Shown one piece after another: positions 43,345 through 56,512 of a stretch of DNA of 64,000 bases. The translations under genes were made by a program, and so were the position numbers. Numbering within the stretch: position 1 is the stretch's first letter; every line of letters starts with the position of its first letter. The DNA is from Spirochaetales bacterium. Lineage in GTDB: Bacteria; Spirochaetota; Spirochaetia; DSM-2461. The stretch lies in assembly GCA_003247135.1 (NCBI GenBank), contig QKAW01000033.1:86514-150513 (forward strand), written 5' to 3'. Under the pieces are notes generated by a model. That model searched no databases. It saw only the letters and a program-made list of their open reading frames with translations, and was not told the origin of the DNA.

Positions 43345-43842
43345 ATGAATAAGCTACGGTTTCGTGTCCCCCTGGTCATAATGGTTTTTGGGCTATGGGC
43401 AATTTTAGTTCTGCCTATTACTACTCCTAAATTAATAATTGGAGTAGTGCTATCTGTTATATTTCTGATTATACCTTTTCCCGGTGCTGAAGTTTACGGG
43501 GATTTAAAATTTTCATTTAAAAAAGTAGCATATTTTATTGCTTACATTTTTTATTTCTTGTGGGCAGTTGTAAAGTCAAATTTAGACGTCGCCTTCAGAG
43601 TTTTATCCCCACAACTACCAATAAATCCTGGAATTGTTAAAGTTAAAACTAAACTGAAAAGCAGTTTGGGCAGGCTCGTACTGGCTAATAGTATTACATT
43701 AACCCCGGGTACAATTACTGTTGATATTGAAAATGAGTTTTTGTATATACACTGGATAAATATCGATACTGAAAATCAGGAATTGGCAACGGGTAAAATA
43801 GTCCAGGGTTTCGAGAAATATCTGGAGGTGATCTTTGGCTGA
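43345..43842 (+). CDS. Mrp/Mnh antiporter subunit E-like (MbxA-like)
   Basis: FYFLWAVVKSNLDVAFRVLSP...LANSITLTPGTITVDIENEFLYIHWI. Confidence 0.88.
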   Translation: MNKLRFRVPLVIMVFGLWAILVLPITTPKLIIGVVLSVIFLIIPFPGAEVYGDLKFSFKKVAYFIAYIFYFLWAVVKSNLDVAFRVLSPQLPINPGIVKVKTKLKSSLGRLVLANSITLTPGTITVDIENEFLYIHWINIDTENQELATGKIVQGFEKYLEVIFG

Positions 43843-44104
43843 CTTAATTCTTTTTATAGCTTGTTCAATAATTTTACTCTCAATATTACTTACATTTATT
43901 CGTTTAATAAAAGGTCCTGACTACATGAACAGAGTAGTTGCTTTTGATGTTATGACAATATCCTCAATTTCATTAATTATTTTCATTTCATATTTTTTAA
44001 AAAGATCTATTTACATCGATGTATCCCTTGTTTATGCCCTTCTAAGTTTTATAGGTGTTATAGCAGTTGCAAGGTTTAGTGAAAAAGGAGATTTGGATGA
44101 TTGA
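43835..44104 (+). CDS. Mrp/Mnh subunit F-like (MbxB-like)
   Basis: RLIKGPDYMNRVVAFDVMTI...VSLVYALLSFIGVIAVARF. Confidence 0.88.
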   Translation: MADLILFIACSIILLSILLTFIRLIKGPDYMNRVVAFDVMTISSISLIIFISYFLKRSIYIDVSLVYALLSFIGVIAVARFSEKGDLDD

Positions 44105-44447
44105 TATAATAGCTTCAGTAGTTATTCTTGTTGGGGCACTATTTTTACTTCTGGCAAGTATTGGATTACTACGAATGCCAGATTTGTATAATAGAATGCA
44201 GGCAGGAACAAAGGCTACAACACTTGGAAGTATTCTAATATTTTTAGGGTTTATAATTTTAAATGGTGATAATTGGTCCAAATATCTTCTTTTAATAATT
44301 TTTATTTTTTTTACAAATCCTCTATCATCCCATGCACTGGCAAGAGCTGCTCATTTTATGGGAATTAACCCTATTTTGGATAGAGAGTCAGAAATTTCCC
44401 CAAGGGATGATTTAAAAACAGAGAAAGATACGGAGGCAGAGTCGTGA
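44097..44447 (+). CDS. Mrp/Mnh subunit G-like (MbxC-like)
   Basis: LLLASIGLLRMPDLYNRMQAGTKATTLGSI; true start likely the ATG at 44097 rather than 44067. Confidence 0.88.
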   Translation: MIDIIASVVILVGALFLLLASIGLLRMPDLYNRMQAGTKATTLGSILIFLGFIILNGDNWSKYLLLIIFIFFTNPLSSHALARAAHFMGINPILDRESEISPRDDLKTEKDTEAES

Positions 44448-44692
44448 TTATTGTAGTTATTATAATTTTATCTCTTATAGCTCTGGTATCTGCCATTATG
44501 GCCATTATCTCCACAGACATGGTCAGTTCCATAATTTTTGGCGGAGTAGTCTCACTGGTAGCTTCAGTAATATATCTTGTTTATGGTTCCCCGGACGTGG
44601 CAATGACTGAAGCCGCAATAGGTTCTGGTCTTACAACCGTTGTATTTCTCTTTGCATGGTTTAGAGTTAAACATTTAGGAGGGAAAGAGTGA
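44444..44692 (+). CDS. MbhD/MbxD-like (MrpA C-terminal/DUF4040-like) subunit
   Basis: SIIFGGVVSLVASVIYLVYGSPDVAMTEAAIGSGLTTVVFLFA. Confidence 0.85.
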   Translation: MIIVVIIILSLIALVSAIMAIISTDMVSSIIFGGVVSLVASVIYLVYGSPDVAMTEAAIGSGLTTVVFLFAWFRVKHLGGKE

Positions 44693-45381
44693 TTAAAAGG
44701 TTTTTTACAATAATTTTAATGGTGTTTTTTGCATCACTGTTCTTTCCTTTGGTAGGATTAATTAGTGATAGAGATAGTGTCAGTTCTCTAGCAAAAGATT
44801 ATCTAGTTCAGGGAAGGGATGATTTTGGTGCAGCTAATATAGTTACAGCTGTAGTTGTTTCCTACAGGGGACTGGATACATTGGGAGAAGTAACTGTTTT
44901 ATTTGCAGCAGCAGCTGGAATCTCTCTGGTTTTTAAAGGTTTAAGAAATGAAGGAAAAGATAAAAAATATAGGGTTAACCCTCCATCAGAAATATTAAGA
45001 ACTGGTGCAAGAGTTCTTCTACCTCTAATTTTTATCTTTGGAGTCTATATTTTTATTAATGGTCATTTAACTCCTGGTGGTGGGTTTCAGGGAGGTGTTG
45101 TAATTGCATCTGGTATCCTCCTAGCCTTTTTTGCAGGTAATATAAAAGAGTTAAATCATGGGTTTGTGACTTTTATTGAGAGTGCTGCCGGTTTCTCCTA
45201 TGTTGCAGTAGGGCTTTTAGGAATCTGGCTAGCTGGAGGTTTTTTAGATCCAAGATTTCTTCCTATGGGTGAATTTGGTTCTCTCTTTAGTGCCGGAGCT
45301 ATACCGGTTATTTATTCTCTGATAGGTCTGAAAGTCGGTTCGGAAATGTCAGGAATTATTGATGCCATAAGGAGTTATTGA
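44689..45381 (+). CDS. MbhE + MbhF/MrpB-like subunit
   Basis: N-terminal NIVTAVVVSYRGLDTLGEVTVLFAAAAGI (MbhE-like) joined to NGHLTPGGGFQGGVVIASGILLAF (MrpB-like). Confidence 0.85.
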   Translation: MIKRFFTIILMVFFASLFFPLVGLISDRDSVSSLAKDYLVQGRDDFGAANIVTAVVVSYRGLDTLGEVTVLFAAAAGISLVFKGLRNEGKDKKYRVNPPSEILRTGARVLLPLIFIFGVYIFINGHLTPGGGFQGGVVIASGILLAFFAGNIKELNHGFVTFIESAAGFSYVAVGLLGIWLAGGFLDPRFLPMGEFGSLFSAGAIPVIYSLIGLKVGSEMSGIIDAIRSY

Positions 45382-45740
45382 TGATGACAAATTTACTTTT
45401 TATTCTTGCCGGAGCACTTGTTCTTGTTGGGTTGTGGGGAATATTGACCCGAAGGAATATTTTTAAAATAATAATCGGATTTTCTCTTGTAGATACAGGA
45501 GTTCATGTTTTTCTTGTAGCTATAGGGTACGTTAAGAATGGGACGGCACCAATTTTTGATAAGGAGTACAGCTCTTTACATAGTCTTTTAAATACGGTGG
45601 ATCCTATTCCTTCTGCTCTGGTTTTAACAGCTATAGTTATAGGGCTGGCGGTTACAGCATTAATGCTTAGTTTTGCAGTCAGATTAATTCTAAAAAACAG
45701 AACTCTTTTGGTTGATGGTAAAAAGGAGTTAAAATGGTGA
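45378..45740 (+). CDS. MrpC/NuoK-like subunit
   Basis: GALVLVGLWGILTRRNIFKIIIGFSLVDTGVHVFL...PSALVLTAIVIGLAVTALML. Confidence 0.85.
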   Translation: MMMTNLLFILAGALVLVGLWGILTRRNIFKIIIGFSLVDTGVHVFLVAIGYVKNGTAPIFDKEYSSLHSLLNTVDPIPSALVLTAIVIGLAVTALMLSFAVRLILKNRTLLVDGKKELKW

Positions 45741-48700
45741 ATCCAGTTTTTTTAATTGCAATTACTTTAGGGTTTGCATTTATTTTTCCTCTTTTTGAAA
45801 AGATAAATCCAAAATTATCCAGATTAGCAGGTATCCTTGTATTTTTAACCCTGGTTGTTATTCCTCTTATTTGGTTTATAAATATTAGCAATATGGATAT
45901 TCCATATATCTACTCCTCAACAGTTGGGCTTCCAAGTAATTTAACAATAAATTTAGCTGTTAGTTATATGGAGGCATTGGTTCTTCTAGTTGTTAACGGT
46001 GTTGGACTTTTTGTATATTTGCAAGAAGCATATTCAAAAGAGTCACCCTGGAAGGGCAAACAGATAATACTGCTTTCAATTGTTATGTTAGGTGCAAACG
46101 GTTTAATAATTACCCGAGATATTTTCAATATTTTTGTTTTTATGGAAATCTCAACAATTTCTCTGTTTGGTTTGTTGAGTTGCTCTTCTGATGATAGAGT
46201 CTTTGAAGGCGGGTTTAAATACATGCTTGCTTCAGGACTCTCTTCTGTCTTTTATTTAATAGGAATCGGATTTTTCTATTTAGTTGCCGGAACCTTGAAT
46301 TTGGATGCCCTACCGGATGGAATTAATTTTACAGGTGGAGTTTTGGGGGTTTTATGGCCACTGTTTCTTCTCTCCGGAGTTCTAATTGAGCTAAAACCAG
46401 CATTTGCAAATGGCTGGGGAATGGATACCTACGAAGCCGCAGATTACTCTCTTGGAGCAATAATGAGTGGTATACAGGCGACTGCTCTAATTATTGTTTT
46501 GACAAAAATTATTCCTTTAATCGAGAGTAATATTATTATGCCACTTTTACTTGTGGTTGGATCAATAACATTTATAATCTCTCATCTTCAAGCCCTTGGG
46601 CAATCTTCATTCAAGAAAATGCTAGGATACTCCTCATCGGCACAGATAGGGTTAGTCTTAATTGTTCTAGGTTCCGGAACAAATATACTTTTGGCAATAG
46701 TTCTGCTTTTAACTCACAGTGTAGCCAAATCCGGTCTTTTTTATACCGGGAAATATTTTAATGAGTGTGGTTCCGGACGTGATAAACCACTTTTAGTAGT
46801 TTTGTCTTCACTATTTGTTATAGCCCTCCTTGGGCTGCCTCCTTTCCCGGGGTTTGGAGCTAAGTGGACTCTTTTACAAATTTTAGGTGGAAAATCAGAT
46901 GTTTTTACTATTTTTATAATACTTCTTGGTTCTTTGCTGGAAGGAGTCTACCTATTTAGATGGTTAGGGTTAAAAATAAAATCAGACAGGGATAGTGGTT
47001 TGGTTGTTTCAGAGGTTGTTCCTGATGATGATGCAATTCCCGGATACAGTTCATCCGATACAATAGGAGTTGCTTCTCAAACCGGATTGGCTGGTTTGGG
47101 TGGTTGTATAAAGGTTCACTTTTCATCTGACTCTTTCTCTTATCATCAACTTTTTCCTGCATTAATGGCTGTTATTATGGTGGTTTCTGGTGTTGTTTTT
47201 AATAAGGGTGTTGGGCTAACCTTTAGATTTTTAATTCCGTTTAGTGGGATTCTGTTTTTCGTAGTACTGGACTTGTTTAGAGTTCCAACTAAATTTCAGG
47301 TTTTTTTGGCTATAGTGGCTTCTATTATTCTGGGATTTTATGTTTATCCTGAACTTAATGGTTTTAATACACTTTTTGGATTTATCTTTTTATTTGGAAT
47401 TGGTGTTCAGTTTATTGCATTTTTTAACAGGAAGGGGTACTCCCCTGGGCTTATGGCATTAACAGTAGGTCTTTTGGTTTCCTTGATCTCAATTTTAACA
47501 AGTAAAACTAATTTTCAACTGTTTTTCTCCTGGGAAATGATGACTCTAACATCCTATTTCCTGGTATTAAGGGGAGATAATGCATTTGCAGGTGGTTACA
47601 GGTATATTCTTTTTTCATTAGCTTCAGCGTTCTTTATACTTGCAGGTTTTTCTATGCTTCACGGTATTTTTATTGGTGAGTATATGTCTTTACCCCAAAA
47701 TTTACTTCCTGTTATTTTAATTATTATAGGAATAATTATTAAATTTGCTGGTATTGGAGTGCATATATGGTTACCTGTCAGTTATGCAGAAGCAGAGAAT
47801 GATGTATCATCGATTTTTTCAACAGTTCTTAGTAAAGTCGGTGTATATATGTTATTTCTTGGAGGTCTCTATTTTTCTAAAAGAGTCTTTAAAGGTGTTG
47901 ATACAATGTATCTTCTTGGCTGGATTGGAGTCTTAACCTCGGTTGCGGGTTCCATGATGGCTCTATTCCAGGAGGATATAAAGTATACTCTGGCATATTC
48001 ATCTATGGGTCAGGTTGGCTATATGATTTTGGGCTTCTCAATAATGAGTCATTTAGGCTGGATTAGTAGCCTCTATCTGGTAACAACCCACATGATGTTT
48101 ATTGGTATGCTTTTCTTATCGGTTTCTGGTGTAATATATAGAACTGGAACTAGGTTAATGTATCAAACCGGTGGATTAATTAAGAGGATGCCTTTAAGTT
48201 TTATTTCTGCTCTTTTTGCAATAATTGCTTTATCAGGAGTTCCTCCTCTATCAGGTTTTGGGGCTAAATGGCTTATGTATAGTGCATTACTTGAGAAGGG
48301 TTGGTATCTCCAGGCAGCTATGGCAATGTTTGCTTCAGGGGTTGCATTCCTATATCTGTTTAGACTGATTCACTCAATATTTTTGGGACAGGAGAAGGCT
48401 ATATATCTTAATGTAAAAGAGGCTCCAGCCCCCCTACTTATTCCTCAGTATATTTTTATGATCTGTGTTATGGCTATTTCAATGTTTCCTAATTTACTGA
48501 TAAAACCACTACAAACAGTAATTGAACCATATTTTGCATCAACTGTCAGGTGGGAAGGGTATGAAGTTATATCTGCCTTGGGTTACTGGAATGGAAATGC
48601 AGTTATGTATGTAACAATGGGTGTGTTTATTATTCCTCTTATCTGGTTATTAATAGTTAATAGACATGTTTATAAAGTTAAACAGTTTAATATTGTTTAT

Positions 48701-48946
48701 GCAGCAGAAAGGCCTTTTAAACCTGAAACAACTCATTATGCCTACAACTTTTTTGGCCATTATCAGAAAGCTCTAGGTTTTCTTGTTGAACCTCTAATTT
48801 CTAAATTCTGGAATGGAACCGGAATTCTTGTTAATAATTTATCCGGTGGTTTAAGAAGGTGGAATAGTGGCAATCCTCAGGGATATGTATTCCAGATTCT
48901 GCTATATGTCATATTTCTTTCATTTTTAATGGGAGGTACTAATTAA
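45734..48946 (+). CDS. Fused double antiporter-like subunit (two MrpD/NuoL/NuoN-type domains in one 1070-aa protein)
   Basis: Two complete domain copies: LGQSSFKKMLGYSSSAQIGL...LTHSVAKSGLFYTGKY...PPFPGFGAKWTLL and AGIGVHIWLPVSYAEAENDVSSIFSTVLSKVGVY...LAYSSMGQVGYMILG...PPLSGFGAKWLMY. Confidence 0.88.
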   Translation: MVNPVFLIAITLGFAFIFPLFEKINPKLSRLAGILVFLTLVVIPLIWFINISNMDIPYIYSSTVGLPSNLTINLAVSYMEALVLLVVNGVGLFVYLQEAYSKESPWKGKQIILLSIVMLGANGLIITRDIFNIFVFMEISTISLFGLLSCSSDDRVFEGGFKYMLASGLSSVFYLIGIGFFYLVAGTLNLDALPDGINFTGGVLGVLWPLFLLSGVLIELKPAFANGWGMDTYEAADYSLGAIMSGIQATALIIVLTKIIPLIESNIIMPLLLVVGSITFIISHLQALGQSSFKKMLGYSSSAQIGLVLIVLGSGTNILLAIVLLLTHSVAKSGLFYTGKYFNECGSGRDKPLLVVLSSLFVIALLGLPPFPGFGAKWTLLQILGGKSDVFTIFIILLGSLLEGVYLFRWLGLKIKSDRDSGLVVSEVVPDDDAIPGYSSSDTIGVASQTGLAGLGGCIKVHFSSDSFSYHQLFPALMAVIMVVSGVVFNKGVGLTFRFLIPFSGILFFVVLDLFRVPTKFQVFLAIVASIILGFYVYPELNGFNTLFGFIFLFGIGVQFIAFFNRKGYSPGLMALTVGLLVSLISILTSKTNFQLFFSWEMMTLTSYFLVLRGDNAFAGGYRYILFSLASAFFILAGFSMLHGIFIGEYMSLPQNLLPVILIIIGIIIKFAGIGVHIWLPVSYAEAENDVSSIFSTVLSKVGVYMLFLGGLYFSKRVFKGVDTMYLLGWIGVLTSVAGSMMALFQEDIKYTLAYSSMGQVGYMILGFSIMSHLGWISSLYLVTTHMMFIGMLFLSVSGVIYRTGTRLMYQTGGLIKRMPLSFISALFAIIALSGVPPLSGFGAKWLMYSALLEKGWYLQAAMAMFASGVAFLYLFRLIHSIFLGQEKAIYLNVKEAPAPLLIPQYIFMICVMAISMFPNLLIKPLQTVIEPYFASTVRWEGYEVISALGYWNGNAVMYVTMGVFIIPLIWLLIVNRHVYKVKQFNIVYAAERPFKPETTHYAYNFFGHYQKALGFLVEPLISKFWNGTGILVNNLSGGLRRWNSGNPQGYVFQILLYVIFLSFLMGGTN

Positions 48947-49878
48947 TGTTATCAGCTATATTAACAAAAACTTTTTATACATTTATATCGCTAATGGTTA
49001 TTCTTAATTATGCTTTGTTATTAATTGGGTCAATGGCAAGAATAAGAGCCAAGGTTCAGGGCCGGGTTGGCCAGCCTGTTTGGCAGCCTTATATTGATAT
49101 TATTAAAAATTATGGTAAAAGAACTGCAGTAACCCACGGTGTTATGTTTTATTTGGGGCCAGTTTTCAGGTTGGCAGGGGGACTTGGAACCTATCTTTTT
49201 ATGCCTGTTGTATATGGTTTTGTTATGTTTGAGAATTTCAGTTTTTCCGGGGATCTCCTTCTTGTTATGTATTTTATATTCTTTGGGCAGTTAGGGATGG
49301 CTTTGGGAGCGGGGGAGAGTGGGCATCCATACTCCCCATTAGGAGTTTCAAGAGGTTTAGCACAGATGACTGCATTTGAACTGCCCTTTGCTCTGGCTGT
49401 TATATCTATTGTTGCTCAGTATGGAACCCTTTCTATTACTGAAATTGTTGCGGCACAACAGGGGGGCTGGCAAAATTGGGTAGCCTTTACTAATCCCTTT
49501 GCAATGATAGCAGGAATGTTAGCCTTTTTGGGGATGAGTATGCAGAATCCCTTCTCTGTTGTTATTGCACCACAGGAAATTCCTATTGGCCCGCCTACAG
49601 AGATGCATTCTGCTTTTTTAGGGATGCTTCAAACTAACAGAGCAATATTTAATGGTGCAAAAATGGTTCTTTTTATGAATCTTTTCTGGGGAGGAGCAAC
49701 TCATAAATATCTATTGGTTGCAATTCTGATTATGGTTGTTAAAACTTTTCTAATTTATCTCTATGTAAATATTGTTGGAGCAAGTTTTCCAAGGTTTAAA
49801 ACAGAACAGTCAATCAGGTTTTTTCTGGGTGTTCCAACGATAATTGGAATTATTGCTGTTATTTTGCAAAGTATTTAG
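48946..49878 (+). CDS. NuoH/MbhM-like membrane subunit
   Basis: RIRAKVQGRVGQPVWQPYIDIIK, GESGHPYSPLGVSRGLAQMTAFELPFAL. Confidence 0.9.
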   Translation: MLSAILTKTFYTFISLMVILNYALLLIGSMARIRAKVQGRVGQPVWQPYIDIIKNYGKRTAVTHGVMFYLGPVFRLAGGLGTYLFMPVVYGFVMFENFSFSGDLLLVMYFIFFGQLGMALGAGESGHPYSPLGVSRGLAQMTAFELPFALAVISIVAQYGTLSITEIVAAQQGGWQNWVAFTNPFAMIAGMLAFLGMSMQNPFSVVIAPQEIPIGPPTEMHSAFLGMLQTNRAIFNGAKMVLFMNLFWGGATHKYLLVAILIMVVKTFLIYLYVNIVGASFPRFKTEQSIRFFLGVPTIIGIIAVILQSI

Positions 49879-49887
49879 GAGGTTTTT

Positions 49888-50616
49888 ATGGAAAAGGATA
49901 TGGAAAGAAGGTTATATGCTGATACAGGAGCTCCTGAAGGATCTCCAGTAGTAAATCCTGACCCGAGAACCCTTGGGGATAGTAGCAATATTCAACTATT
50001 TAATGAGCAATTAAAACTGTTAAATAGTGGCTTAACAGAAGAAGACAGACTTAATTTTTGTGATACACCACCCGAAGTTATTAAACCTTTTAGAGGCCAT
50101 TGGGAAAATTTCCTAAATTGGGCAAGAAGTGAATCCCTATGGATACTTGGTTTTGGTACCGGTTGTGGAGCTATAGAATTAAGACCATTAATGACAAGCC
50201 GGTTTGATATGTATCAGTATGGTATTCAACCAAGACCAACACCAAGACAGTCCAGTATTTTTGTTATTGGCGGTTATGCTTCTGTAAAAACAATGAAAAG
50301 AATTGTTAGAAGTTACGAGCAGATGCAAGGGCCTAAATTTGTACTGGGTTTAGGAAGTTGTACTATAAACGGTGGGATGTATTATGACTCCTATAATACT
50401 GTAAATCGCTTGGATCATTATATTCCGGTAGATGTATATATTGCTGGTTGTATGCCAAGACCAGAGGCATTACTGGCTGGGCTAATGGAGTTAAAAACAA
50501 TAATAAAAGAGGGCCGGGGTGAAGGTGCTAACAAGTATGCAGAAAATTTTGAATGGTATAAAGCAAATCAGAAAAGAATAATTAAAGATTGGAATATGCC
50601 GGATTACAACTGGTAG
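49888..50616 (+). CDS. NuoB/MbhJ-like Fe-S subunit
   Basis: FGTGCGAIELRP, KFVLGLGSCTINGGMYY, VDVYIAGCMPRPEALLAGLMEL. Confidence 0.9.
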   Translation: MEKDMERRLYADTGAPEGSPVVNPDPRTLGDSSNIQLFNEQLKLLNSGLTEEDRLNFCDTPPEVIKPFRGHWENFLNWARSESLWILGFGTGCGAIELRPLMTSRFDMYQYGIQPRPTPRQSSIFVIGGYASVKTMKRIVRSYEQMQGPKFVLGLGSCTINGGMYYDSYNTVNRLDHYIPVDVYIAGCMPRPEALLAGLMELKTIIKEGRGEGANKYAENFEWYKANQKRIIKDWNMPDYNW

Positions 50617-51167
50617 GAGGATTTATGAATATTGAACTCTATAAGAATTTGGAAAATTCCTTTGGTGTTACATCTCTGGAAGTAAAAAATAGAAATCAAT
50701 CCTATATCCGGGTTAAAAAGGAGATGGCAGTTCCATTGATAACCCACCTGAAATTAGTGGAGAGTTATAAGCATTTATCATTCTTTACTATAATTGACCA
50801 GATAGAAAAGGGTGAATTTGAGCTTCTATATATGTTGCATAGCTACTCAAGAAACCATGATTTAGGGATTATTGTAAGTATAGAACGACATGAAACTGAT
50901 ATGGAGAGTATACACCATCTGTGGCCAGCCGCTGAGACTTATCAGAGAGAACTAAGGGAGATGTTTGGAGTGGAATTTCCAGATTCCCCTGGATTATATG
51001 AAAATTTCTGCCTTGAAGGATGGGAAGGAATTCCTCCTATGAGAAGAGAATTTGATACAAAGAGATATAGCGAAGATACTTTTTATAAAAGACCAGGTCG
51101 AGAGACAAATGATCCTGCAAAGTATATGAAAGAGAAAATTTATCCAAGCGAGGCTGAAACATGGTAG
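50589..51167 (+). CDS. NuoC/MbhK-like subunit
   Basis: HHLWPAAETYQRELREMFGVEFPDSP...WEGIPPMRREFDTKRY; likely start at 50625 ATG. Confidence 0.88.
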   Translation: MEYAGLQLVGGFMNIELYKNLENSFGVTSLEVKNRNQSYIRVKKEMAVPLITHLKLVESYKHLSFFTIIDQIEKGEFELLYMLHSYSRNHDLGIIVSIERHETDMESIHHLWPAAETYQRELREMFGVEFPDSPGLYENFCLEGWEGIPPMRREFDTKRYSEDTFYKRPGRETNDPAKYMKEKIYPSEAETW

Positions 51168-52372
51168 AAAAAGGGTGTGCTAATTTATTTACTAGGAGCC
51201 AAAAACATATAAACGATAATCCCAAATTGCCTCCTATTGTTAATGGAAGAGCAAAATATAATCTGGAAAGCGGTAAATATCTTAAGATATGGCAAGGGCC
51301 ACAACATCCTGGAATTACAGGAAACATGAGTCTTGAGTTAACTGTGTGTGGGGATGAAATTGTCGACTGTAAAACCCATGTAGGCTATCTTCACAGAGGG
51401 TTTGAAAAACTGATGGAAAGGCGTAAGTATATGCAATGCTTTCCCATAGTTTGCAGAATAGCTGTTCCGGAGCCGGATTTTAATGAGTATCTATTTGCAG
51501 CAACAGTTGAGGAACTGGCTGGTATTGAAGCCCCGGAGAGAGCACTATGGATTAGAACTCTTAATCTTGAAATGGCAAGATTAGCAAGTTTTTTTATGTG
51601 GCTTGGGGGGCAGTCCGGATCCTTTGGTATGAACACCCAGGGACAGTGGACAGTTACAATGAGGGATTACATACTGGATAGATTTGAAGAGTTATCCGGA
51701 GGAAGAATTTATCATATGTATATGATTCCCGGAGGGGTCAGGGCAGATCTTCCATCAGGTTTCGAAAATCGGTTGCTTGATACATTAAAAACATGTGAAA
51801 AGTGTTTAGATGATGTTGAGTTAACAATGTTTAATAACTCAATCTTCAAAAAAAGATCTAAAGGTCTTGGAATCATCCATCCTGATATTGTTGATGAATT
51901 TGGAATTACAGGGCCAAATGCAAGAGCCGCAGGTTTTAAAAGAGATCTCCGGAAGGATGAGCCATATCTTAAGTATGATCAACTGGATTTTGAAATTATT
52001 ACAGGAATTGATTCTGATGCATATACAAGGGCCAGAGTGCGGCTTCAGGAGATGTATCAGAGTATTGATCTTATTAGGCAAATATTAGCAAAAATGCCAA
52101 AAACAGGGAGTTTTTTTACAAAGTTACCAAATGTTCTTCATTGGAATATTCCGGAAGGTCAAATTTACAAAAAAGCAGAGTGTACCAGAGGTGAGTATGG
52201 ATACTATTTAAGAAGTGACGGCTCGGACAAACCCAGAAGAATTTATGTCAGAGGGCCAAGTTATACCCATGCTGTCAGCCTAATGGAGAGATTGTGTATT
52301 GGGGGTAATATCTCTGATACTGCAGGTTTAATGGTGTCACTTCATACATATCCACCAGAAGTAGAGAGGTAG
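51161..52372 (+). CDS. NuoD/MbhL-like large subunit without [NiFe] ligand motifs
   Basis: GPQHPGITGNMSLELTVCGDEIVDCKTHVGYLHRGFEKLMERRKYMQ; no RxCGxC or DPCxxC motif. Confidence 0.9.
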   Translation: MVEKGCANLFTRSQKHINDNPKLPPIVNGRAKYNLESGKYLKIWQGPQHPGITGNMSLELTVCGDEIVDCKTHVGYLHRGFEKLMERRKYMQCFPIVCRIAVPEPDFNEYLFAATVEELAGIEAPERALWIRTLNLEMARLASFFMWLGGQSGSFGMNTQGQWTVTMRDYILDRFEELSGGRIYHMYMIPGGVRADLPSGFENRLLDTLKTCEKCLDDVELTMFNNSIFKKRSKGLGIIHPDIVDEFGITGPNARAAGFKRDLRKDEPYLKYDQLDFEIITGIDSDAYTRARVRLQEMYQSIDLIRQILAKMPKTGSFFTKLPNVLHWNIPEGQIYKKAECTRGEYGYYLRSDGSDKPRRIYVRGPSYTHAVSLMERLCIGGNISDTAGLMVSLHTYPPEVER

Positions 52373-52375
52373 AGA

Positions 52376-54151
52376 ATGAGTTTAAAAGATTTAGTCGCCC
52401 CTTTTATGGTTTGGGGCAGAGCACTGCAAAAACCCTATACCCAAAAAAATCCAATAATAACCAGACCGGGAGCAGACAGATATAGAGGTTTTCATGTAAA
52501 CGATATTCACAAATGTGTTGGTTGCGGAACTTGTGAGGAGATATGTCAGAATGAGGCTATAGACCTGGTTCCAGTTGATGGAATTGAAACGAAACATGGA
52601 GATTCTGGGCTTAGACCAAAGATTGATTACGGTAGATGCTGCTGGTGTGCTCTCTGTGTTGATATATGCCCAACTTCATCCCTTGGAATGAGTAACGAAT
52701 ATATATGGATAGATTCCAATCCTGAAGTTTTCAGGTTTATTCCCGGTGCTGAAAATAAAACCTGGGATAATAGTAAAAAAGGGTATAGACGAGGAGAGGG
52801 GTATGATCTTCTGGAAGGTCAGAGAGTTCCAATGCCTATGCTCAGTTTTGAAGAGAGTCAAAAAACATTTATAGAGATGGTACAGGGGTTTAGTAGAGAG
52901 CAGGCTTTGAGAGAAGCCGACAGATGTGTCTCATGTGGTCTCTGTATTGCCACATGCCCAGCTCATATGGATGTTCCAGGGTATATTAATGCTATAAGAA
53001 ATGATGATATGGAAGAAGGACTAAGAATAGTATATGAGGCAAATCCCCTCCCGGCATCCTGTGGTAGAGTCTGTTCCCATGCTTGCGAAGATGTCTGTGT
53101 AATGAAACACAAAGGAGATGCCCTCTCAATTCGTTGGTTAAAGAGATACATTGTAGACAGAATATACAAAGGTGATTATGAGAAAATCCTATCAACAGGA
53201 GAGGCAAAAAACGGGAAGAAAGTTGCAATTATTGGTTCCGGACCTGGAGGATTAGCAGCAGCTTACTATCTTTCACTGTTAGGATATGAAGTTACAGTTT
53301 ATGACAGTAACGAAAAAGCTGGGGGAATGATCCGGTATGGTATTCCTGAATACAGACTGCCCTATGAACAGGTAGACAAGGATATAGACTATATAAAATC
53401 CCTTGGTGTAAAAATTGTACAAAACACTAAAATAGGAGAAGACCTGGATTTTATGGAACTATACAATAATAACAATGCGGTCTTTTTCTCAACCGGATTA
53501 AAAGATCCCTATGGCCTGGATATTCCCGGGGAAGAATTTCCCGGAGTGACATCTGGACTCTCACTGCTTGATGATGTTACTATAGGTAAAACTCCAGATT
53601 TGGGAAAATCCGTTGTTGTTGTAGGTGGTGGAAATGTAGCCATGGATGCGGCCAGAACAAGTAGACGGTTAAATTGCGAAGTAACTATTTTATATCGTAG
53701 ACGAATAGAGGATATGCCCGCTGATGTTGAGGAGATCCATGAAAGTCAGGAAGAGGGTTGTATAATAGAGACTCAGGCAATTCCATTACGTATTGTTAAA
53801 GGGGATAAAACCAGACTGAAGTTATACTGGGGAAGAGCGGAAATGGTTACAGACCCTAAGGGTGGTAGACCAAGACCGGTGTTAATTGAGGGCAGTGAAG
53901 AGGTTATTGAGTGTGACACAGTAATTCCTGCCATCGGACAACAGGCTGATTATAGTTTTTTACCCGAGGAAATTGTTAATAATATTAAATTTAACCGTGG
54001 AATGGTTGAAGTTAATGAGTATAAACAGACAGGTGATTTAAAGATATTTGCAGGCGGTGATATTGTAAACTTTAAAAAAGATGCAATATCGGCAATTGCT
54101 AATGGTCATTCAGCTGCAAAGGGGATTGATTTATATTTGAATCAACTCTAA
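52376..54151 (+). CDS. NuoI/MbhN-like 2x[4Fe-4S] ferredoxin domain fused to GltD/NfnB-like NAD(P)-FAD oxidoreductase
   Basis: CVGCGTCEEICQNEAID + CCWCALCVDICPTSS, then CVSCGLCIATCPAHMDVPGYI, CGRVCSHACEDVC, VAIIGSGPGGLAAAYYLSLLG, VVVVGGGNVAMDAART. Confidence 0.9.
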   Translation: MSLKDLVAPFMVWGRALQKPYTQKNPIITRPGADRYRGFHVNDIHKCVGCGTCEEICQNEAIDLVPVDGIETKHGDSGLRPKIDYGRCCWCALCVDICPTSSLGMSNEYIWIDSNPEVFRFIPGAENKTWDNSKKGYRRGEGYDLLEGQRVPMPMLSFEESQKTFIEMVQGFSREQALREADRCVSCGLCIATCPAHMDVPGYINAIRNDDMEEGLRIVYEANPLPASCGRVCSHACEDVCVMKHKGDALSIRWLKRYIVDRIYKGDYEKILSTGEAKNGKKVAIIGSGPGGLAAAYYLSLLGYEVTVYDSNEKAGGMIRYGIPEYRLPYEQVDKDIDYIKSLGVKIVQNTKIGEDLDFMELYNNNNAVFFSTGLKDPYGLDIPGEEFPGVTSGLSLLDDVTIGKTPDLGKSVVVVGGGNVAMDAARTSRRLNCEVTILYRRRIEDMPADVEEIHESQEEGCIIETQAIPLRIVKGDKTRLKLYWGRAEMVTDPKGGRPRPVLIEGSEEVIECDTVIPAIGQQADYSFLPEEIVNNIKFNRGMVEVNEYKQTGDLKIFAGGDIVNFKKDAISAIANGHSAAKGIDLYLNQL

Positions 54152-54173: not shown

Positions 54174-55016
54174 ATGAATAGGATTATTGCTAAGGAACAA
54201 CTATCTGCAGATGTTTATAAAATGGAGATTGAGGCTCCCTATATTGCAGAGAGCAGAAAAGCAGGTCAATTTATTATTTTACAAATTGACAATGATTTTG
54301 GAGAGAGAATCCCCTTAACTATTGCTGATGCGAGTCTGGAAAGAAAAACAATAACTATTATTTTCCAAGCAGTGGGAAAGACTACAATTCATCTATCAAA
54401 GTTAAATGTAGGAGATAAAATTACAAATCTTCTTGGCCCTCTAGGGACACCTACAAAAATTTCCAATGTTGGAACTGTTGTATGTGTTGGTGGTGGTATT
54501 GGTGTTGCTCCAATGCATCCAATTGCCCAGGCTTATAAAGCTGCTGGAAACAGAGTTATTTCAATAATAGGTGCCAGAAACAAAGATCTTCTAATTATGG
54601 AAAAAGAGATAAAAAAATGCTCCGATGAAGTTATTATCTGTACAGATGATGGATCCTATGGAAGAAAGGATTTAGTAACTGCACCCTTAAAAGAGTTGTG
54701 TGAACAGGGTATTCCTTCGGAAGTTGTTGCAATAGGTCCTCCTATTATGATGAAGTTTGTATCAGAGACAACCAGACCGTTTAATGTTCATACTATGGTT
54801 AGTTTAAACACTATAATGGTAGATGGAACAGGGATGTGTGGCGGTTGCCGTGTTACAGTTGGTAATGAGACAAAATTTGTTTGCGTTGACGGACCGGAGT
54901 TTGATGGGCATAAAGTTGATTTTGATAACATGATGTTAAGACAGAAATCTTATAAAAACCAGGAAGACCATGCTACACACAAGTGTAGAATTGGATTGAA
55001 TGAGGGTGAAAAATAG
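54174..55016 (+). CDS. NfnA/SudB-like FAD/NAD(P)-binding [2Fe-2S] subunit
   Basis: LLGPLGTPTKISNVGTVVCVGGGIGVAPMHPIAQAYKAAGN, GTGMCGGCRVTVGNETKFVCVDGPEFDGHKVDF. Confidence 0.9.
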   Translation: MNRIIAKEQLSADVYKMEIEAPYIAESRKAGQFIILQIDNDFGERIPLTIADASLERKTITIIFQAVGKTTIHLSKLNVGDKITNLLGPLGTPTKISNVGTVVCVGGGIGVAPMHPIAQAYKAAGNRVISIIGARNKDLLIMEKEIKKCSDEVIICTDDGSYGRKDLVTAPLKELCEQGIPSEVVAIGPPIMMKFVSETTRPFNVHTMVSLNTIMVDGTGMCGGCRVTVGNETKFVCVDGPEFDGHKVDFDNMMLRQKSYKNQEDHATHKCRIGLNEGEK

Positions 55017-56512
55017 TGAGCCACATAAGAACATTTTCAGAACTTGAGCAGGAAGCTATAAAAATATATAACGAAATTAAAGATAAGGATTTAAAACCAA
55101 AGGATAGAATGGCTATTCCGCAAATGGATATGCCATCCCAGGATCCGATTATTAGAGGTAAAAATCAACAGGAAGTTGCTTTAGGTTATACTAAAGAGCA
55201 GGCAATGGTAGAGGCAGCACGATGCCTTCAGTGTAAGAGTGCCCCTTGTATAAACGGTTGTCCTGTATCTATAAATATTCCAAAATTTCTTGAGGAAGCA
55301 GCAAAGGGTGAATTCCAAAAATCTGTTGATGTTATTAAAGAGTCCAGTTTACTGCCTGCAATTTGCGGAAGAGTTTGCCCTCAGGAAAGCCAGTGTATGG
55401 AAGAGTGTACTGTAGGTAAATCTTTAAAAGATAAGATGAAATCTGTAGCTATTGGAAGAGTAGAGAGATTTGTTGCAGACCTTGAAAGAGAGACCTCTGA
55501 AGTTAAAACCCCTGAAATTAAACCATCTACAGGTTTTAAGGTTGCTGTAGTAGGTTCCGGGCCTGCAGGATTAACAGTAGCTGCAGATTTAAGAAAAGAT
55601 GGCCACGAAGTTGAAATTTTTGAAGCCTTTCATAAGCCCGGTGGTGTAATGATCTATGGTATTCCTGAATTCAGGCTGCCAAAAGCTATAGTAGAGAAAG
55701 AGATAGAAACCTTAAAGTCCATGGGTGTAAAATTTCACATGAATTTCCTTGTTGGTAGAACAAGAACAATAGAGGATTTAATGGAGAAAGATGGATTTAA
55801 TGCTGTTTTTATCGGTAGTGGTGCAGGATTACCAAAATTTATGAACATTCCTGGTGAAAATCTTGTAGGTGTTTTTTCTGCAAATGAGTACTTAACAAGG
55901 TCCAATCTTATGAAAGCTTACGATAAAGAGAGAGTAGATACTCCGATTTATCACTCTAAAAAAGTTGCGGTTTTAGGCGGTGGAAATGTTGCTATGGATG
56001 CAGCCCGAATGGCTTTAAGACTTGGTGCTGAAGAGGTTAATGTTATTTACCGAAGAACCAAGAATGAGATGCCAGCAAGAGCTGAGGAGATAGAACACGC
56101 CGAGGAAGAGGGAATAAAATTTCACTTTTTATCTAATCCGGTTCAAATCCTTGGGGATGAAACAGGTAGAGTTAAAGCTATTGAGTGTTTAAAATATGAA
56201 CTTGGTGAACCGGATGCCTCTGGTAGAAGAAGCCCTATTGCAATTAAGGGAAGTGAGTTTGTAATGGAGATGGATACAATAATTCCTGCTTTAGGTAATG
56301 CATCTAACCCATTAATTAAACAGACAACAGAAGACTTAATTACAAATAAATGGGGTAATATAACAGTTGATGAGAACAAAAGAACTTCAATTAAAGGTGT
56401 TTATGCCGGTGGAGATATAGTTCTTGGTGCAGCAACAGTTATTCTGGCAATGGGTGAAGGCCGAATAGCTGCTAAAACCATATCAGAAGATCTGTTAAAT
56501 AATAAACTTTAA
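55016..56512 (+). CDS. NfnB/SudA (GltD-like) NADPH-binding subunit
   Basis: CLQCKSAPCINGCPVSINIPKFL, VAVVGSGPAGLTVAADLRKDGHEVEIFEAFHKPGGVMIYGIPEFRLPK, VAVLGGGNVAMDAARMALRLGA; GTG start. Confidence 0.9.
   Translation: MSHIRTFSELEQEAIKIYNEIKDKDLKPKDRMAIPQMDMPSQDPIIRGKNQQEVALGYTKEQAMVEAARCLQCKSAPCINGCPVSINIPKFLEEAAKGEFQKSVDVIKESSLLPAICGRVCPQESQCMEECTVGKSLKDKMKSVAIGRVERFVADLERETSEVKTPEIKPSTGFKVAVVGSGPAGLTVAADLRKDGHEVEIFEAFHKPGGVMIYGIPEFRLPKAIVEKEIETLKSMGVKFHMNFLVGRTRTIEDLMEKDGFNAVFIGSGAGLPKFMNIPGENLVGVFSANEYLTRSNLMKAYDKERVDTPIYHSKKVAVLGGGNVAMDAARMALRLGAEEVNVIYRRTKNEMPARAEEIEHAEEEGIKFHFLSNPVQILGDETGRVKAIECLKYELGEPDASGRRSPIAIKGSEFVMEMDTIIPALGNASNPLIKQTTEDLITNKWGNITVDENKRTSIKGVYAGGDIVLGAATVILAMGEGRIAAKTISEDLLNNKL

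Follow-up and report, generated by a model that had tools for sequence, protein, structure and literature searches.

The window (the whole 64,000-nucleotide stretch of DNA that was analysed) holds a 12-gene operon of the Mrp/Nuo type at positions 43345-54151, in which the genes are tightly packed and the last one encodes the fusion protein studied here. The gene order is that of Table 1: the Mrp-like subunits E, F and G, a small MrpB-like subunit, MrpB and MrpC are followed by a double antiporter, by NuoH, NuoB, NuoC and NuoD and finally by the fusion. The MrpF-like, small MrpB-related and MrpC-like subunits were named from position and conservation. The double antiporter unites both antiporter-like subunits in one chain; they appear as separate chains in L035, a Bacteroidales relative, and in two operons with a stand-alone NuoI (L081, L083).

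Table 1. Genes and domains of the operon and of the adjoining NfnAB pair, in window positions.
Feature	Position	Strand	Basis of assignment
MrpE-like subunit	43345..43842	+	Pfam MNHE
MrpF-like subunit	43835..44104	+	Operon position; related operons match at 48-56% in the corresponding place
MrpG-like subunit	44067..44447	+	Pfam PhaG_MnhG_YufB
Small MrpB-related (DUF4040-like) membrane subunit	44444..44692	+	Operon position and conservation; putative family assignment
MrpB/MbhE-F-like subunit	44689..45381	+	Pfam MnhB and MbhE
MrpC-like subunit	45378..45740	+	Operon position; related operons match at 49-63%
Double antiporter-like subunit, two Proton_antipo_M domains, 1070 aa	45734..48946	+	Two Pfam stretches
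NuoH/MbsM-like membrane anchor	48946..49878	+	Pfam NADHdh
NuoB/MbsJ-like subunit, three-cysteine proximal site (C93, C158, C188; Gly90 at MbsJ C25)	49888..50616	+	Alignment to 6u8y_J; invariant in 14 operons
NuoC-like subunit, true start probably further in	50589..51167	+	Pfam Complex1_30kDa
NuoD/MbsL-like subunit, without NiFe cysteines and without quinone residues H38/Y87 (Thr53, Val102)	51161..52372	+	Alignments to 6u8y_L and 2fug_4; relatives
Fusion protein, NuoI/MbsN-like and GltD/NfnB-like	52376..54151	+	591 aa, one open frame
NuoI/MbsN-like domain, two [4Fe-4S] (C47/50/53/57, C88/91/94/98)	52376..52720	+	NuoI models; 6u8y_N match; invariant Cys
GltD-type Fe-S domain (Fer4_20), two [4Fe-4S] (C184/187/190/194, C229/233/237/241)	52862..53167	+	Pfam; invariant Cys
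Two dinucleotide-binding domains (FAD, NADP), YRRR motif after GGGNVAMDAA	53216..54097	+	Pfam; AlphaFold and Foldseek
NfnA, NADH-side flavoprotein	54174..55016	+	NCBIfam; adjoins fusion
NfnB	55016..56512	+	TIGR01316 gltA-type, 642 bits, above cut-off; tree

A first-pass annotation of this DNA had read the last gene of the operon as a NuoI-type ferredoxin subunit fused to a GltD/NfnB-like FAD oxidoreductase, and had proposed a domain search as a check. Each motif that it quoted is indeed present in the single frame, and Pfam and NCBIfam agree on a NuoI-like start and a GltD-like remainder. Pfam places a Fer4 dicluster at residues 46-101, Fer4_20 at 163-264 (E = 1e-29) and Pyr_redox_2 at 281-574 (E = 1.5e-29). 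The NuoI models of NCBIfam are confined to the first ~110-128 residues (E = 8e-27) and its GltD-type models span residues ~145-590 (E down to 1e-131). A single model of NCBIfam, NF010590/PRK13984 ('putative oxidoreductase'), covers the entire fusion from end to end with 721-723 bits, which despite the end-to-end alignment lies below the curated cut-off of 946 bits. Residues 15-111 align with chain 6u8y_N of the Pyrococcus furiosus MBS (E = 4e-21). When 25 homologues with 44-77% identity are aligned, all cluster-ligand cysteines (16 out of 16) are invariant, so the fusion is the product of neither chance nor an assembly join; it carries four predicted [4Fe-4S] clusters. The closest named relatives, at 75-76% identity, are from Spirochaetales genomes.

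The AlphaFold model of the fusion is confident from residue 281 onwards (pLDDT mostly 80-97) and poor at residues 1-170 (mostly below 50 with 25 sequences); cluster-to-cluster distances in the model are unusable. The best Foldseek matches of its confident part are NfnL, NfnABC, StnC and GltD (E = 1e-42 to 1e-34), and with DPD the matches extend to E = 1e-30; all of these proteins bind FAD and NAD(P)(H). A YRR(R) sequence after the second glycine-rich motif, which is typical of NADPH sites in this flavoprotein family, is present in the window protein and in most relatives. It is absent from L012-L015, L035, L036, L098, L100 and L106, where a TSLES/TCLEP-like sequence occurs instead; such fusions may use NADH, so not all members need use NADPH. 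A six-residue insert accompanies TSLES/TCLEP (alignment columns ~410-460) in L012, L014, L015, L035, L036, L098, L100 and L106.

Downstream of the fusion, at a distance of 22 bp, starts a complete NfnAB pair (54174-56512), of which NfnA is probably co-transcribed with the fusion operon. The second NfnB-like gene that had been noted two genes downstream is thus present, but as the B subunit of a complete pair whose NfnA had been missed. Whether one of the two GltD-like domains derives from the other is answered in the negative by the flavin-half tree: the NfnB rows form their own clade (100/99) apart from the fusion rows, and an origin of the fused flavin half from the neighbouring NfnB is rejected. 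The fused flavin halves do not group cleanly in one clade of this tree, as an archaeal stand-alone protein (L042) falls inside on a long branch, and placing all fusions on one side of a branch is rejected by an AU test (p = 0.005). The archaeal protein (L042:3954-5312), GltD-like and from Thermoplasmata, is encoded apart from any such operon. A single origin of the fusion was not recovered in the NuoD tree either, where L014/L015 join the operons with a stand-alone NuoI with moderate support (92/74).

The association of the fusion with its operon was followed over 52 fusion genes, corresponding to 47 clusters at 95% identity from about seven phyla. They come from 20 named loci of the genome collection (19 fusions), from further loci in relatives and from a sample of 393 genomes spread over the phylum, 19 of which have a fusion copy (E ≤ 1e-120). 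A NuoD-like gene lies directly upstream in 49 of the 52. In a 50th (L104), it is likewise upstream with an inserted repeat between the two genes, and the remaining two fusions sit at contig ends. The repeat (L104:810-1500) consists of 'CHPEPVEGCHCERKRS'-type elements in a row. Scattering of the fusion outside such operons, which the first-pass annotation had named as evidence against a role in the complex, was not found among these genes. Where enough sequence was covered, the complete Mrp-Nuo-fusion order occurs in Spirochaetota, Cloacimonadota, Bacteroidales, a 'Deltaproteobacteria' MAG and Delongbacteria, and the Nuo part with the fusion is also found in Calditrichota and Caldisericaceae. 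NfnA, on the other hand, adjoins the fusion at a single locus out of 52, that of the window genome, in flanks that often span only about 1.5 kb. Judged by this difference in linkage, the fusion is part of the complex, whereas NfnAB is not, with the window genome as a possible exception; NfnAB as a conserved component of the complex is rejected. Its position next to the fusion may mean that NADPH supply was coupled to the complex locally and recently.

Other genes follow the fusion elsewhere. In Spirochaetota, an ArsR-type repressor is found directly after it (L025:12049-12366, L026:6674-7003, L027:11730-12062). These repressors contain the ILC cysteine that is known from persulfide sensors and lack a C-terminal cysteine. 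In Calditrichota, a ferritin/rubrerythrin-like gene, assigned by eye, occupies the same place (L037:8470-8940, L038:3556-4014, L040:3051-3521). In the Bacteroidales genome, a dihydroorotate-dehydrogenase-like gene, also assigned by eye, starts 15 bp past the fusion (L035:11797-12780) and recalls PreT-PreA pairs.

The top PDB matches of the NuoB- and NuoD-like subunits are chains J (E = 9e-63) and L (E = 2e-91) of the P. furiosus MBS. MbsJ C28, C93 and C123 are the ligands of the proximal cluster in MBS, C25 being too distant; the open iron of this cluster has been proposed to reduce polysulfide, and the three-ligand site is held to be catalytic (PMC7684303). The equivalent cysteines of the window protein are C93, C158 and C188, and the three are kept, with C25 replaced by Gly, in 14 out of 14 operons. 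At the places of Nqo4 H38 and Y87, the NuoD-like subunit has Thr53 and Val102; both residues are replaced in the relatives too, and MBS likewise lacks them (PMC7684303). The marks of complex I, i.e., the quinone-binding His38/Tyr87 and the adjacent CC pair at N2, are absent from the window subunits and from the relatives examined. MbsL C85 and C385 correspond to Ala101 and Tyr397 in the window, C85 being kept in most relatives; in MBS, catalysis continues when both are mutated (PMC7684303). The CxxC pairs of group 4 NiFe hydrogenases were found neither in the NuoD-like subunit of the window nor in those of its relatives, and a true Mbh-type operon from the same search (L087) does contain CGIC and CYSC, so the test discriminates. 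Beside the former NiFe motif (VCRIC/VCRIA), Cys98 of the window protein is conserved without exception in the operons seen, both fused and stand-alone, and is Leu in MBS. Finally, menD and mqnC gave no match over the cut-off in 13 related genomes, eight of which are of high quality.

The MBS/MBX features present are the three-cysteine proximal site, the lack of quinone and complete NiFe residues, and the linkage of NuoH/B/C/D to an Mrp module that has two antiporter-like domains. A separate ferredoxin-accepting MbsN is absent, its counterpart being the domain fused to the flavoprotein. For this reason the complex is, by its sequence features, a variant of the MBS/MBX type and not a plain member. 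By homology with MBS, sulfane sulfur would be the best-supported acceptor. A quinone or hydrogen reaction is unlikely, given the missing quinone and NiFe residues, the contrasting L087 control and the lack of menD and mqnC matches over the cut-off.

The genus-mates G001 and G002 have an otherwise similar complex in which NuoI stands alone, at about 137-147 amino acids, and no flavin half is present. Second operons of this type occur in G004 and G006, both of which have the fused version as well. Such operons are L081 (in G001), L082, L083 and L084. The putative input module is thus swapped between close relatives. The three-cysteine NuoB-like site is also present in the stand-alone-NuoI operons where it is covered (G001, G004), and hence the electron input appears to change and the acceptor site does not. 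The NuoD tree unites the stand-alone-NuoI operons in one clade (99/99), next to which two fused members are placed with moderate support. The NuoI half of the fusion is 41-45% identical to the stand-alone NuoI and shares its RCCWC.LC motif.

Based on these observations, we consider it fairly probable that the fusion serves as the electron-input subunit of an MBS/MBX-type complex that transfers electrons from NADPH to polysulfide and thereby drives ion pumping. We infer that the subunits assemble into one complex, in which NADPH rather than NADH would reduce the FAD of the GltD-like half. Single electrons would then pass from the FAD through the two clusters of this half and the two of the NuoI half to the proximal [4Fe-4S] of the NuoB-like subunit, at whose one open iron polysulfide would be reduced. 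Through the NuoH-like anchor and the two antiporter-like domains of the Mrp module, this redox step would drive the pumping of ions, probably Na+. The nucleotide would be the donor because use of the pump requires that electrons end at the NuoB/NuoD/NuoH site. With NADPH at about -320 to -380 mV and polysulfide at about -260 mV, the driving force is small compared with that of ferredoxin, so few ions would be pumped per electron pair. Rnf is encoded in the same genome as the fusion and, together with NfnAB, it would make NADH, ferredoxin and NADPH interconvertible upstream of the complex. The invariant clusters and the linkage in 50 out of 52 cases bear out the earlier proposal of a wire from the peripheral electron chain to a flavin/NAD(P) site, which in the folded complex would be continuous. 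What is added to that proposal is the type of machine, which appears to be neither quinone-reducing nor a hydrogenase, and the likely direction of the electrons.

One counterpoint is that ferredoxin, which MbsN accepts, may still be accepted by the NuoI-like half as well. Two other readings we regard as unlikely. In the first, the protein would be a ferredoxin:NADP+ oxidoreductase, in which reduced ferredoxin docks on the NuoI-like half and NADP+ is reduced by the GltD half. Indeed, MbsN takes ferredoxin in MBS (PMC7684303), GltD/NfnB domains can work in both directions, and the P. furiosus Mbx was once proposed to be such an enzyme, as cited in PMC6349859. Nonetheless, the P. furiosus complex was later shown to be a sulfane reductase (PMC7684303), and the window genome already has NfnAB for this redox exchange. 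Moreover, with donor and acceptor both on the fusion, NuoB, NuoD and NuoH would be bypassed without pumping, which leaves the linkage to a whole complex unexplained. In the second, equally improbable reading, ferredoxin at the NuoI half and NADPH at the GltD half would both feed a sulfane reductase, and the flavin half would act as a second entry point or as a redox buffer. The features that the NuoI half shares with the stand-alone, presumably ferredoxin-fed versions (41-45% identity, RCCWC.LC) are in line with this, and Rnf and Nfn in the same genome bring all three pools into play. However, the NuoI half gives no specific sign of a retained ferredoxin surface, and the flavin half may cover part of the distal end.

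The chances are slimmer still that the fused flavin bifurcates, splitting NADPH electrons between the exergonic polysulfide branch and a low-potential ferredoxin branch, so that the complex would pump ions and also make reduced ferredoxin; in this genome, NfnA would then dock on the fusion. A complex-I-like NAD(P)H:quinone oxidoreductase, as the general likeness of the NuoB/C/D/H-type subunits might suggest, is largely refuted: both quinone-binding residues are absent in every relative examined and neither menD nor mqnC exceeds the cut-off in the 13 genomes, and a quinone acceptor is rejected. A membrane-bound hydrogenase (Mbh/Ech) with an NADPH module shares the Mrp-Nuo architecture and is practically ruled out by the NuoD-like sequence, which lacks the NiFe cysteine pairs that L087 has.

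If NADPH indeed feeds this complex, a complex I relative can exchange its electron input and yet keep an ancient sulfur-reducing site. The ferredoxin-type version with a stand-alone NuoI and the presumed NADPH-type version with the fusion, occurring in close relatives, would then be a natural experiment on the origin of the nucleotide module of complex I. As Cloacimonadota, Calditrichota, Spirochaetota and others have this fusion too, NADPH-driven sulfur respiration may occur in many uncultured anaerobes.

Among known systems, the P. furiosus MBS (formerly Mbx; PDB 6u8y) is similar in its Mrp module with a double antiporter, its NuoH/B/C/D-type subunits and its three-cysteine proximal cluster, as well as in the lack of a complete NiFe set and of quinone residues. 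It differs in having a stand-alone ferredoxin-accepting MbsN, in place of the MbsN-like domain joined to a GltD-type flavoprotein that is seen here, and in MbsJ C25 (Gly here) and MbsL C85/C385 (Ala/Tyr in the window). The NADPH modules NfnB, GltD, StnC and NfnABC have the fold, the two [4Fe-4S] clusters and the FAD and NADP domains in common with the flavin half. Those proteins, however, are soluble and deliver electrons to NfnA, GltB or a NuoF-like subunit, whereas the partner here is a NuoI domain of the same chain. The available text of a survey of Nfn fusions describes four patterns, none with NuoI (PMC6405883). Yet the architecture as such is not new, as it is already in the databases as NF010590; that model spans the whole fusion, but its family is merely named 'putative oxidoreductase' and the window protein stays at 721 bits against a cut-off of 946. 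At the level of whole genomes, one out of 14 control genomes exceeds this cut-off, that of Thermotoga maritima. The T. maritima mbx operon has been described with 12 genes (PMC2246101), as in the window, or its MBX with 13 subunits, modelled as ferredoxin-fed, and the mbxA transcript is up about 4-fold with S0 (PMC9431562). T. maritima may carry the version of the complex described here. Its MBX, drawn as a ferredoxin:sulfur pump, may be NADPH-fed, and, if so, estimates of its ATP yield would change. With complex I, finally, the window complex would share an Fe-S chain that leads to NuoB from a nucleotide-oxidising flavoprotein (NuoEFG in complex I) at its opposite end. Unlike complex I, it has no NuoEFG and no quinone site, and it would achieve this arrangement with a GltD-type flavoprotein unrelated to NuoF and with an Mrp-type membrane arm.
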